Shown here in pieces: positions 21,498 through 36,495 of a DNA stretch of 64,000 bases. Under the pieces are notes generated by a model. The model worked only from the letters and a program-made list of their open reading frames with translations. It ran no database searches and was not told the origin of the DNA. How positions within the stretch are numbered: position 1 is the first letter of the stretch; every line of letters begins with the position of its first letter. The translations under genes were made by a program, and so were the position numbers. This DNA is from Calocera cornea HHB12733 (lineage: Eukaryota > Basidiomycota > Dacrymycetes > Dacrymycetales > Dacrymycetaceae), in assembly GCA_001632435.1 (NCBI GenBank), contig KV423930.1, positions 179,170 to 243,169 on the forward strand, written 5' to 3'.

Positions 21498-23284
21498 GTG
21501 CCCACCGTTCTGGCTCCCCGCAAGCATCCGCGCCGGACGAGCTCGCCCTCCCCCCCCGCTCCCCGCCGCCGGCCCCCTCCGCCCGTCCCCTCCCCCGCCC
21601 TCGCCGCCTCCTTCACTTCCCGCGCCTCCTCCTCCCGCGCCACCCCCGCCGCCCCCGCCCCCGCCCCCGCCCCAGAGCAACCAGGACCCCGCAGGAGCAA
21701 GCGCCGCGGCCCCCCGTCCCCCTCCCCGCTCTCCCGCCCAGAACCCGAGATGGGCCTCGCCCAGCCGCACGCGTTCGAGCACCCCGAAGCGGCCGAGGGG
21801 CCCGCAGACCCGACAGAGACGGAGATCGACAGCCGGCAGTCGGAGGACGATGCCGACGCTGACGGCACAGCGACCGCCTCGCCGATGACTGGCCCACACT
21901 CCGACGCCTCCCAGCCCGACCGCGACCCAGGCCCGTCAATATCCCACTCCCCTGGCGGACAGACCCCAGCCCCGGAAGTCGTCCCCACCCCCGACCCGTC
22001 CCCGCCCTCCTCGCACCCCTTCATCCAGCACCTCGCGACCGTCTTCTCTGCCTATCAGGTAGGCCCGCACCCGCCCCCGATCCCCAAGTACGACGGGCCG
22101 TCCGACTGGCAAACGGAGCTGATCCAGCAGAACGTCGACCGGCTCTTCCGCCGCTTGTACGATGCGGAGGAGCGGCTTGAGGGCCTGAGCCCGACCAGGC
22201 CCAACAAGCGCGTGCGCCAGCTCGCACACGCCGACGTGGTCGCGGGCAGCAAGCGCAAGCAGCCGCCGTCCAGCGACGCGCCCGAGCGCGCCAGCCTGCC
22301 CCCCGACGCGCCCCACCCCGGTTCTGGCACCGGCCCGGCCAAGGAGCCCCCGATGAAGATATCGTTCGCGGACATCCCGCCCCACCTGACGGCGGAGGAG
22401 ATGGCGAAGAGGGACTTGCGGACGCCCGTGCCCGCCGGGCCGGGGTCGTACCACCACTGTCCGGCCTGCGGGCGCGTGCTCGAGCAGCCGTCGATGCTCA
22501 CGGGCATCTCCCACGCGCACATCTCACCCACCGACTCGCCGCTCGTCGTCCCCCCCGGCCCGCTCAGCGCTGCGGCCTTCGAGAGCGGCATGGACGCGGT
22601 GGAGGAGCTCCAGCTGCTCAAGGCCCAGGTGCAGGAGATCGCCCGCGTGTGCAAGGGCGTCGCCGAGGGCGATTTGAACAAGAAGATTGCCATTGACGTG
22701 CAGGGGCCGGTTATGAGCGAGCTCAAGGATAGCGTGAACGAGATGGTCGGCACGCTCGGCAAGTTTGCGAGCGAGGTGACTAGGGTGTCCTTAACCGTCG
22801 GCACGAAGGGGTGCGCATACCTCTGTATATGCTAGGGTGCATAAGTATGCTGACAGAATTCGCAGCCAACTCGGTGTCTCCGCCAATGTTCCCGGGATCA
22901 AGGGCACCTGGCTCGACCTGCAGAACGTCGTCAACCAGCTCGCGGACAACCTTACCGAGCAGGTGCGCTCCATCGCCGCCGTCACCAAGGCGGTCGCGGA
23001 GGGCGACCTGAGCAAGCAGATCGAGGTGTCCGCGCAGGGCGAGATCCTCGAGCTCAAGGACACGGTCAACAACATGGTGCTGCAGCTGCGTGGGCTGGCC
23101 AAGGAGGTCACGAGGGTCACGATGGAGCACGGCTCGGAGGGGAACCTTGGCGGGCAGGCGATCGTACCCGGTGTCGAGGGTGTGTGGAAGGAGCTGACGG
23201 ACAACGTGCGCACGCTATCTCTTGCATTGGGGGGCTGACGCTGACGCATATGTATATGCGCACAGGTGAACAAGATGTGCACGA

Positions 23285-23318
<34 letters not shown>

Positions 23319-33000: not shown

Positions 33001-36000
33001 CCAGAGCATGGCTCGAAATCTCACGCTGCAAGTGCGCTCCATCAGCTCAGTCACCAAAGCGGTCTCCCAGGGAGATATCACCAAGTTGGTCGACGTGGAC
33101 GTCAGTGGGGAAATGTTCGAGCTGAAGGTACTAGTTCAATCATACACGGGAGACTTATTCTTGACCTGCATACAGGAAACGGTGAATAGCATGGTCCATC
33201 AACTCGACTTCATCGTCAATGAGGTATCTCGGGTTGCCCTGCAAGTCGGTATAGAAGGCAACCTGGGCGGTCAAGCGATGGTTGGTCCCTTGGTACAGGG
33301 TAAATGGAAGGTGAGGCACACGAGCACGCCATTTCCTGCTTTATCTGATCTCGGCTTCCCCAGGTTCTCACGGATAATGTGCGCTCGCTGGAATGGAGTG
33401 CAATATTGTTAACGTACTAATGGCTACTCTGTTGTATAGGTGAACTTGATGGTAAGCCAGACTCTTCACCGTCTATCTACATAGCTGACTTGAATTAGGC
33501 CCATAACTTGACCAATCAAGTGCGATCTATTGCGTTGGTCACCACGGCTGTCGCCGAAGGTGACCTGTCCAAGCGTGTAGAAATCTCCGCCCGAGGCGAG
33601 ATTCTGGATCTCAAGGTTCGACCCAAACAAACATGTCCATTGCGATGCTAATGTACTGCAGGATACCGTGAACAGCATGTGCGATTCCCTAGCCAAGTTT
33701 GGCTCTGAAGTCACTCGGTGAGTCTCACATCAGTTGGCAGATACATGAAGGCTCATCTTGATGTAGTGTTGCGAAGATGGTGGGAACAGACGGCATCCTT
33801 GGTGTGCAAGCCGAGGTATACAATGTTGCTGGCATCTGGAAGGTCAGTCCATACAGAGCCGTGTACCCTCTGTATTCAGCTGACCGGAGTGCAGGACCTG
33901 ACGGAGAACGTGAATGGCATGGCGAACAATGTAAGATTCCCTTTTGAGATGTTGCGCAACGCTAACACAGGTATTCTCCAGCTCACGACACAAGTCCGTG
34001 ATATTGCACGCGCAACCGTACGTCTTCTGACAATGATGGCATTTTGTCCACTAAACGAGCCCTTCGAGCAGAAAGCCGTGTCCATCGGCAATCTGACAAC
34101 CAAGGTCGAAATCCAGGCCTCAGGAGAGATCTTCGACCTTGTTCTCACGATCAACGGTATGATTGATCAGCTAGCCATGTGGGCTGGCGAGGTGCAGAGG
34201 GTCGCTCGCGAGGTGGGAACTGAAGGCAGGCTTGGGGTCAATGCGAGCGTGCACGATGTCGAGGGAACCTGGCGTGAGATAACGTACGTATGAGGCGCTC
34301 ACCTAGGTGTATGGCCTTAACAGTTCGCAGGGTGGCCGTCAACACCATGGCGAACAATCTGACAACCCAAGTCCGAGGCTTTGCCCAAATTGCGTCGGCG
34401 GCAACGGACGGAGATTTTACCAAATTTGTCACCGTAGAAGCGAGCGGCGAGATGGACTCACTCAAGAGCAAGATCAACCACGTAACCAATTTCAACTCTT
34501 CGAGTTGCATGTGCTAATGCCAGGGCGCAGATGATTCGGGATCTGCGTGACAGTATTCAGCGCAATACAATGGCGAAGGAAGCGGCAGAGTCCGCGAACA
34601 AGAGCAAGTCCGAGTTTCTTGCCAACATGTCACACGAGATCAGGACACCAATGAACGGCATTATTGGGATGACGTCCTTGTGCCTGGAGTCCGGTGAATT
34701 GACAAGAAGCAACAAGGACAATCTGCAGATCGTGCACAGTTTGGCGCAGTCGTTGCTGTTCATAATCGACGATATCCTCGATATTTCCAAGAGTCAGTTG
34801 GTTCATCGGTCAGGCTGACAAGAGGCTAACTTCGCTACACAGTTGAGGCGGGTCGGATGACGATAGAATACATCACATTCTCCATCCGGCACCTTGTCTT
34901 CCAAGCATTGAAAGGACTGTCTGTTCGTGCTCAACAAGGGGCCGTGGACCTGACATACGACGTGGATAACGAGATTCCGGACCAAATCGTTGGTGATATG
35001 TTCCGACTGCGCCAGGTTGGTACTTTCCGGATCTTGAAGTGTTGAGACTGATATGTCACCCAGGTGCTTGTGAACTTGGTCGGCAACGCCATTAAATTCA
35101 CGCCAGCGGGGGATACACCCGGCAAAGTCACTGTGTCTGTCGGCTGGATTCCGCATGAGTCCAGCAACGCCGAAATCAAGCTACTGTTCAGTGTCAAGGA
35201 CACGGGAATTGGGATTGCGTCCGATAAGGTCAACGTGATCTTCGATACCTTCGCTCAGGCAGATGGGTCCACAACGCGGGTAAGTACCTCGACCTTTCGC
35301 TCAGTGCTTGAGCACTCACAGTGCATCAGAAATTCGGTGGGACGGGTCTCGGGCTTTCCATCTCCAAGCGTTTGGTCCTGCTGATGGGGGGTAACCTCTG
35401 GGTTGAAAGCGTTGAGGGCCGAGGCAGCACCTTCTACTTCACCATCAAGGCCCGCTTAACGCCCGGAAACGCGGATGCTGAGACCATGCAAAAGGTTGCT
35501 CTCTACGAGAATCGTCCCGTCCTATGGCTGAACACTCGTCGGAATGGGGACAACGTGACCGGACTGCTGCAGAGCCTCAAATTCAGTGTTACGGTTGTGC
35601 ACAGTGTTGACGATGTGCCGAAAGACGAAACGCGCTACGATGCCATCATGATCGACAAGGTGGGTCTTGTAGACGTAGTGAGGCAGCAAGAAAACCTCAA
35701 GGACTCTCCATTTGTCATCCTGGATGGCGCTGCGACGCACCTGGACCGTGAGCATTTCCGTGCCCGAGCTTATGAGTCTGTCTAACGGCTTGATCAGTGC
35801 AATGGTGCGTCGGCAACAGTGTCATGTCTCACATTCCCTGGATCGACAGCGTTGCTACGCTTGCCGGTGCGCTGTTACCTGCTCTCGAATACGTCTCGGG
35901 AGAGCCGTTGAGCGGCGACAAACTGGTGCCTTACGACATCCTGCTGGCCGAAGACAATGTCGTCAACCAGAAGGTGGCGGTCAAGATCCTCGAGAAGCTC

Positions 36001-36495
36001 GGTCATCATCTTGAGGTTGTGGACAACGGACAGAAGGCTGTGGAAGCTGTCAAGAAGAAGGCCCACAGCGGAAGGCAATACGATCTCATTCTCGTGAGCC
36101 TGAGTGTATGCATGCTGTGACAGTCGCTTAAGCCTCTGCAGATGGACGTGTCCATGCCGCTCATGGGCGGTATCGAAGCGACGGAGACGATCCGCAAATG
36201 GGAGGGGGACCACGGCGTCCAACGCGTGCCCATTGTCGCGCTGACCGCGCACGCAAGTGAGTACCTGCACTCTATCCTTACCCCTTATCCCTGACCTCGC
36301 CCAGTGCTCGGCGACCGCGAACGGTGCATCCAAGCGGGGATGGACGAATACGTGCCCAAGCCGCTGAAGCGCTCGGACCTCATCTCGAGCATGACCAAGG
36401 CTGTCCGCATCAGCCAGCGCAAGCAGCACCAAGCGATCACGGCCACCCGCGCTACCCCCAAGGCGATCACACCCCCTCCGGTCGAGCTCGAGTGA
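21498..36495 (+). CDS. NIK1: Giant group III hybrid histidine kinase with about 36 HAMP units (NIK1/OS-1 type)
   Basis: Estimated 4,200 residues; usual NIK1 proteins have about 1,200-1,400 with roughly five to nine HAMP units (recalled knowledge). The first exon (21498-22810) has a Pro-rich head, a CPACG motif and HAMP 1. Exons 22866-23205 (HAMP 2), 23266-23823 (HAMP 3 and 4) and then 276-nt exons follow. HisKA has SHEIRTPMNGIIGMT with the phospho-His codon at 34633-34635. HATPase shows NLVGNAIKFTPAG, DTGIGI and GTGLGLSI. The receiver domain has ILLAEDN, MDVSMPLMGG with the phospho-Asp codon at 36145-36147, and PKPLK. All catalytic residues are present and no TM segment is seen, so it is a cytosolic sensor. 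Family knowledge: it relays phosphate via YPD1 to SSK1 and the HOG1 pathway, responds to osmostress and is the target through which fludioxonil and iprodione act. The small exons at 33400-34500 are the least certain. Confidence 0.88.
22590..34480 (+). repeat. HAMP exon array, about 36 units, period 323-334 nt
   Basis: Met codons opening successive units lie at 23874, 24198, 24522, 24851, 25178, 25503, 25832, 26158, 26488, 26822, 27146, 27469, 27793, 28116, 28439, 28763, 29090, 29420, 29749, 30075, 30401, 30727, 31058, 31383, 31709, 32035, 32360, about 32685, and 33008. Units 1-4 lie before this list; units 34-36 (33497-34480) lie after it and are cut by extra introns. The consensus unit is R-M-A-D-N-L-T-N-Q-V-R-S-I, then A-x-G-D-L-T, G-E-I-x-x-L-K, then L-G-G-Q-A and D-L-T-x-N-V-N. 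Each exon is 276 nt (92 codons) and each intron about 47-58 nt, phase 0 on both sides. Confidence 0.9.
27745..27791 (+). repeat. Intron duplicated almost perfectly at 28715-28761
   Basis: This HAMP intron (key word GTCCAGCTGCATGGGTCAAT) recurs 970 nt downstream with a single difference near the donor (GTGCGT versus GTACGT). Other introns of the array have drifted beyond recognition. The flanking exon ends are also nearly identical, marking a recent three-unit duplication or conversion. Confidence 0.8.

Follow-up and report, generated by a model that had tools for sequence, protein, structure and literature searches.

A NIK1-type hybrid histidine kinase gene with 36 HAMP units in Calocera cornea

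How long can the chain of HAMP units in front of a fungal histidine kinase become while the protein behind it remains a complete kinase? HAMP units, such as those of NIK1 and Aer2, form a parallel dimeric helical bundle along which conformational changes are passed. The question is raised by a gene of the jelly fungus Calocera cornea HHB12733 (Basidiomycota, Dacrymycetes), which lies on the forward strand of a 64,000-nucleotide stretch of contig KV423930.1 (assembly GCA_001632435.1, positions 179,170 to 243,169), referred to here as the window and numbered from its first letter. A sequence-only reading of this DNA had proposed a NIK1-type kinase in which about 36 HAMP units precede complete HisKA, HATPase and receiver domains, and both the unit number and the kinase domains hold up in the present analysis. 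The gene has an intact reading frame, 36 HAMP units in a near-constant 92-residue register, the key catalytic residues and a record of purifying selection between the units. Taken as a whole, the locus is probably best explained as a full-length NIK1/group III kinase with an exon-duplicated sensor, in which the units would form a dimeric rod and the extra units would take part in sensing or tuning.

Gene model, HAMP units and kinase domains

The predicted coding region (21750..36495, + strand) is drawn from exon splicing, Pfam matches and a Dacryopinax orthologue with a similar start. It runs from an ATG at 21750 to a TGA at 36495 in 49 exons and comprises 4106 codons with zero internal stops. 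The 48 introns measure 46–61 nucleotides (nt) each and all are bounded by GT..AG (48/48). A CTRAY branch-point motif is present in 31 of the 48, well above the 6.4 ± 2.3 seen in shuffled introns, and for this reason the introns look real. With the GT donor chosen in the model, exon 13 has 270 nt, while a GC donor six bases downstream gives 276 nt, the same as the neighbouring exons, and a protein of 4108 amino acids (aa); the deposited protein carries two extra residues at exon 13, which fits the GC donor. The start codon at 21750 is the most likely one, because the Dacryopinax orthologue begins similarly, with a start, an N-terminal region and units 1–3 that resemble those of the window protein. 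The earlier placement of the start at 21498 and the earlier length of about 4,200 residues are replaced by 21750 and by 4106 aa, or 4108 aa with the GC donor in exon 13. A pseudogene was also considered, and was ruled out by the zero stops together with a mean ratio of nonsynonymous to synonymous differences per site (pN/pS) of 0.26.

The units were counted with a 92-aa profile for which 27 of the 28 one-unit exons in the window were used, all but the one of 270 nt. A search of the spliced protein with this profile gives exactly 36 HAMP units, abutting without a gap over residues 287–3576, where unit 36 is about half a unit that runs into HisKA. The Pfam check proposed earlier for the spliced protein finds 33 HAMP (PF00672) and 34 HAMP_2 stretches, two counts that are not additive since both models can cover the same residues. 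From the unit profile and the splicing, units 1–4 lie in exons 1–3 (22608..23823, +), units 5–32 in the 28 one-unit exons (exons 4–31; 23871..32957, +), and units 33–36 in a part with many introns (33005..34608, +). Each one-unit exon is of phase 0/0 and so is removable without a frame break, and 27 of the 28 are exactly 276 nt long. Tandem repeats of about 324 bp occur in three stretches of the array. All 31 HAMP matches at E ≤ 0.001 in the 32.1-Mb genome (302 contigs) fall inside this single gene. Chance or a repeat artefact was rejected as the origin of the array in view of the 36 abutting units, the constraint on the units and the branch-point motifs.

Purifying selection is seen in the comparison of all 351 pairs among the 27 exons of 276 nt. 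The mean pS is 0.74 and the mean pN is 0.19, and in none of the 351 pairs does pN/pS exceed 1. Synonymous sites are saturated in 170 pairs, and dN/dS averages 0.10 in the remaining 181. The 27 compared units are under purifying selection.

For the 32 units that are exactly 92 residues long, the two non-overlapping halves of the unit align in register, and their profile scores lie above 200 of 200 column shuffles in the local comparison and above 199 of 200 in the global one. The linkers of NIK1 are viewed as HAMP-like; if they are, the array would be 36 + 35 = 71 HAMP-type modules. We call neither half canonical or divergent, because under the DExG rule the NIK1 HAMPs themselves count as divergent (PMC3570549; PMC3418262, on Bos1).

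The array is preceded by a pre-HAMP N-terminal region of residues 1–286 in exon 1 (21750..22607, +), with a similar region in Dacryopinax, which carries basic clusters and a CPxC motif (residues 237–240, 22458–22469) ahead of HAMP unit 1. A CPxC within the first 600 residues is found in 70 of 240 relatives, and two such motifs in a parallel dimer could bind one metal ion or form a redox switch. Behind the array, Pfam and motifs place HisKA at residues 3575–3641 (34603..34853, +, interrupted by the intron 34793–34842) with the phospho-accepting His3585, HATPase_c at residues 3689–3808 (34995..35452, +) with its N and G boxes, and the receiver (Response_reg) at residues 3954–4072 (35938..36390, +) with the phospho-accepting Asp4007. 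The key residues are present throughout: beside the H, N and G boxes these are the acidic pocket, Asp4007 and the Thr and Lys-Pro motifs.

Two features that mark group III kinases, a HAMP array and, behind it, HisKA, HATPase_c and a C-terminal receiver with catalytic residues, are found. The group is further characterised by the lack of a transmembrane segment, a cytosolic or nuclear location and a role in the response to fludioxonil. The protein departs from the group in having 36 units where 5–7 repeats are usual, a typical trait and not a strictly defining one. Among the relatives, some bear the names histidine kinase osmosensor, NIK1, nik-1 or Tco1, and many are entered only as hypothetical protein or histidine kinase. 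Across the whole genome there are one HPt, five HisKA and ten receiver matches, although some of the ten receiver matches are probably exons of one gene. With these matches a normal phosphorelay is likely in this fungus, and the single HPt match would be compatible, and only compatible, with an output through Ypd1 and the HOG pathway.

Array length in relatives and the history of the units

In a first list of 120 relatives of the whole protein, with lengths of 1754–5388 aa, we counted full first halves of units. More than 36 are found in four of the 120, three from Coemansia and one partial entry from Linderina, with 37–39 each, and by raw unit matches six of the 120 exceed the window protein, the extra two having many broken units. 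Entries from Mortierella, Mucorales and Mycena in the same list have 14–31 first halves. The four longer arrays rule out that such a length is unique, and from these comparisons the gene appears to be an extreme form of a known sensor and not a new kind. To the earlier question whether so long an array with an active hybrid kinase is known, the answer is that such proteins are already in public databases. A literature search, in whose coverage most subscription papers do not fall, showed no description of an array this long among the titles and abstract openings listed, and HAMP is unmentioned in the accessible part of one paper (PMC8510515).

The second list, of 120 relatives of an 880-aa query, spans 852–1539 aa, a range in which longer arrays could not appear. 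Exactly seven first halves are found in 28 of the 120, from 23 basidiomycetes and five bacterial or unnamed sources, and a Tulasnella entry has seven matches with six full first halves. All 24 named basidiomycetes of this list have seven unit matches, and the remaining entries have between 7 and 15. Seven thus appears to be the common state among the shorter basidiomycete entries, which do not amount to a census. Class III kinases are described with 5–7 HAMP repeats in one study (PMC5159414), against 36 units here. The array in the window has about five-fold more units than the seven-unit kinases, in line with the several-fold expansion first proposed.

Among characterised systems, Bos1, TcsC, DhNik1 and Tco1 likewise have N-terminal HAMP repeats followed by HisKA, HATPase_c and a receiver with key residues; these four are counted among the NIK1/group III kinases. 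The closest long arrays are those of Dacryopinax primogenitus (P0005, 26 units) and Calocera viscosa (P0006, 25 units, starting inside the array), which have fewer units than the window protein and hold partners of its units mostly in order. A search with the Dacryopinax kinase region has three Dacrymycetes among the matches listed, all with long arrays. The giant kinases of Coemansia, Linderina, Mortierella, Mucorales and Mycena have 14–39 units of about 92 residues, most of them before a hybrid kinase, yet in those tested the internal units fall in clusters of their own lineage, apart from the Dacrymycetes units. An acidobacterial poly-HAMP hybrid kinase from Solibacter usitatus (P0072) gives 16 matches to the 92-residue unit of the window; it differs in being bacterial and in also listing PF13185, a GAF-type family.

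A tree of 127 units from eight chosen basidiomycetes (92 columns, SH-aLRT support) provides insight into how the array was assembled in evolution. Window units 1, 2, 3, 35 and 36 group with units 1, 2, 3, 6 and 7 of the seven-unit relatives, with support of 99, 93, 80, 97 and 100, respectively. For window unit 33 the partner is unit 4, in three out of the four relatives with seven units, at a support of 86 that leaves this grouping open. Best matches agree for units 1, 2, 6 and 7 of Agaricus and Ceraceosorus, and in each of the seven species compared the second and the last unit agree as well. Because units at the two ends group with six of the seven ancestral ones, the 29 units 4–32 lie after ancestral unit 3 and before ancestral unit 4, and 28 of them make up the one-exon-per-unit block.

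Internal units of Punctularia (11, support 96) and Mycena (14, support 80) form clades of their own, and it therefore seems that the arrays of Punctularia, Mycena and the window protein expanded separately, at a similar position. In a second tree, to which Coemansia, Mortierella, Rhizopus, Solibacter and Wickerhamomyces were added, units cluster by lineage with 33 changes compared to 106.8 when shuffled, and for the 62 Dacrymycetes units there are 9 changes compared to 52.1. Window units 8, 10, 11, 14, 15, 21, 23–26 and 32–36 have one-to-one partners in Dacryopinax, in order, whereas units 4–7, 9, 12 and 16–20 have no one-to-one partner in the tree. Given the many ordered partners, a long array predates the split of the genera Calocera and Dacryopinax.

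Alternative readings

Several observations weigh against the reading of a full-length kinase with a duplicated, rod-like sensor. The deposited annotation starts in exon 6, omits exons 1–5 and 11–12 and truncates the receiver. In the unit tree, 61 of the 123 inner branches are open on 92 columns, Ceraceosorus unit 4 stands apart from the other unit 4s, and window unit 34 groups only with its Dacryopinax partner, with no further resolution. By best match, unit 1 of Amanita, Tulasnella, Mycena and Punctularia does not pair with window unit 1, nor does unit 6 of Amanita, or its counterparts in Mycena and Punctularia, pair with window unit 35. Concerted evolution within species could also produce the species-wise clusters. 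An AlphaFold model of two units (query exon 3, aligned with 25 of the 28 one-unit exons, exons 13, 15 and 19 being left out) is weak, with a mean pLDDT of 65, a pTM of 0.41 and a visible helix pattern. A Foldseek search with this model gave zero matches at E ≤ 0.001, with the Aer2 poly-HAMP at E above 1. Finally, hhalign gives the match between unit halves a probability of 48% over 20 columns in local mode and 3% in global mode.

The deposited protein (P0002, 3035 aa) deserves a closer look. It shares three identical blocks with the window protein, 3021 aa in sum, by which the window belongs to Calocera cornea and probably to strain HHB12733. It is missing the N-terminal 838 residues, the 184 residues of exons 11–12, which make two internal units, and 63 residues at the C-terminal end. 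Its junction of exon 10 to exon 13 keeps the reading frame, and this skip could reflect either an error of prediction or a genuine isoform. A mature transcript with fewer units, made by constitutive or alternative skipping of cassette exons, would agree with that junction, with the start in exon 6 and with one-unit exons that can be skipped in frame. We nevertheless regard it as unlikely, as the receiver end of P0002 is lost where its C-terminus runs on into intron sequence, apparently an error of gene prediction, while the unit exons are constrained, the introns carry branch-point motifs and Dacryopinax possesses the N-terminal units. The same late start, together with a change in base composition, could point to two genes, a GC-rich one upstream (exons 1–3) and the deposited one from exon 6. 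GC is 0.65–0.70 in exons 1–3 (21750–23823), drops to 0.49–0.59 in exons 4–47, two tiny exons excepted, and returns to 0.65 in exons 48–49, so that the lower-GC part is 23871–36093. However, exons 1–5 share the frame and the unit register with the rest, and in the Dacryopinax orthologue a similar N-terminal region is joined to the array, which rules the two-gene model out for practical purposes and leaves it very improbable. The GC drop after exon 3 is possibly a cause of the late-starting models. The Calocera viscosa entry also begins inside the array, and with two of three Dacrymycetes entries starting there, the public gene models for arrays of this kind are not always right.

An expansion made by the assembler from a few real units, for which the ~324-bp tandem repeats would speak, is hardly credible. 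Such an expansion would leave near-identical copies, whereas most synonymous sites differ between the units, exact repeats in 22501–34500 reach 62 bp at most and partner units stand mostly in order in Dacryopinax and C. viscosa. Among introns 3–31 the single near-identical pair is 15 and 18 (98%), the next best pair reaches 69% and the median is near 55%. One patch of about 215 bp (27640..27855, +; exon 15 end, intron 15 and exon 16 start) is about 95% identical to 28610–28825, at an offset of 970 bp. As this identity is confined to the patch, with less identical flanks, it looks like a likely case of gene conversion inside the array.

What the middle block does is a separate matter. It is possible, if on balance doubtful, that the block is a mere spacer or scaffold between end units that sense and switch. 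The end units group across species and the middle varies in number, and one study reports that HAMP4 of DhNik1 regulates the kinase through interaction with HAMP5 (PMC5159414). The middle units, on the other hand, are under purifying selection for their sequence and not for length alone. A bolder proposal, which we hold to be quite unlikely, is a length-tunable rod, adjusted over evolution by exon duplication and, on a second time scale, in the cell by in-frame skipping, with unit number setting the threshold or range of stress sensing. It is suggested by the 28 units being interchangeable symmetric cassette exons; duplication would then be independent at a similar site in several lineages, and the exon 10–13 junction would be an example of a skip.

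Proposed mechanism, surroundings and significance

We return to the preferred reading, a full-length kinase with an exon-duplicated sensor. A 276-nt exon of phase 0/0, equal to one 92-residue unit, would have been duplicated in tandem, so that the sensor grew at a point after ancestral unit 3 and before ancestral unit 4. Units 1–3 and those next to the kinase would have kept the arrangement of an ancestor with seven units. The protein is expected to be dimeric, its HAMP units stacking into a single helical rod with a length of very roughly 150–200 nm, a rough estimate from helix rise. Stress would alter the conformation of this rod, the conserved proximal units may relay the change to the kinase, and the kinase would feed Ypd1 and the HOG pathway. 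For the extra units, the most likely role is that of further sensing or tuning modules in the rod, not of a new output. As first proposed, such a length could alter signal range, gain or the response to fungicides. By analogy with the HAMP4–HAMP5 interaction of DhNik1, the conserved kinase-proximal units would fit a conserved switch joined to an enlarged sensor or spacer.

Solved structures bear on this scheme. Chain 9trk ('histidine kinase,Gcn4p') matches three consecutive units with 39, 93 and 149 bits (E 5e-81 overall), the multi-unit chain 9trj matches with E 2e-37, and Aer2 3vol with E 7.5e-6. 9trk has three units only, of which two have diverged (39 and 93 bits compared to 149); through it such units now have an experimental structure.

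An open reading frame (ORF) at 55504–57054 on the minus strand, about 19 kb downstream of the kinase gene, carries the CxC5 and CxC6 cysteine clusters associated with KDZ transposases and is probably the remains of a mobile element. Pfam gives a match in one of ten neighbouring ORFs. A repeat scan finds simple tandem repeats with units of 6, 12, 18, 24 or 36 bp (CTTCAA, CTTCTA and AGAAGT types) at five sites (45233–45295, 47410–47636, 50246–50643, 54193–54284 and 56518–56610), and 57-bp repeats at 40982–41118, 41493–41602 and 45878–45987. Rfam and tRNA scans of the window gave zero matches, and the NCBIfam cut-off was reached by none of the best 25 of 89 families.

How a signal travels through stacked HAMP domains is a live question, and the NIK1 studies consulted here concern proteins of about 5–7 repeats. 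Natural arrays of 7, 17, 20, 26, 31, 36 and 40 unit matches on a kinase of one kind constitute a graded series, in which one could directly test how length affects sensing, the decay of the signal and the response to fungicides. The pattern of conserved ends and an expanded middle predicts which units act as switch units and which are extra.

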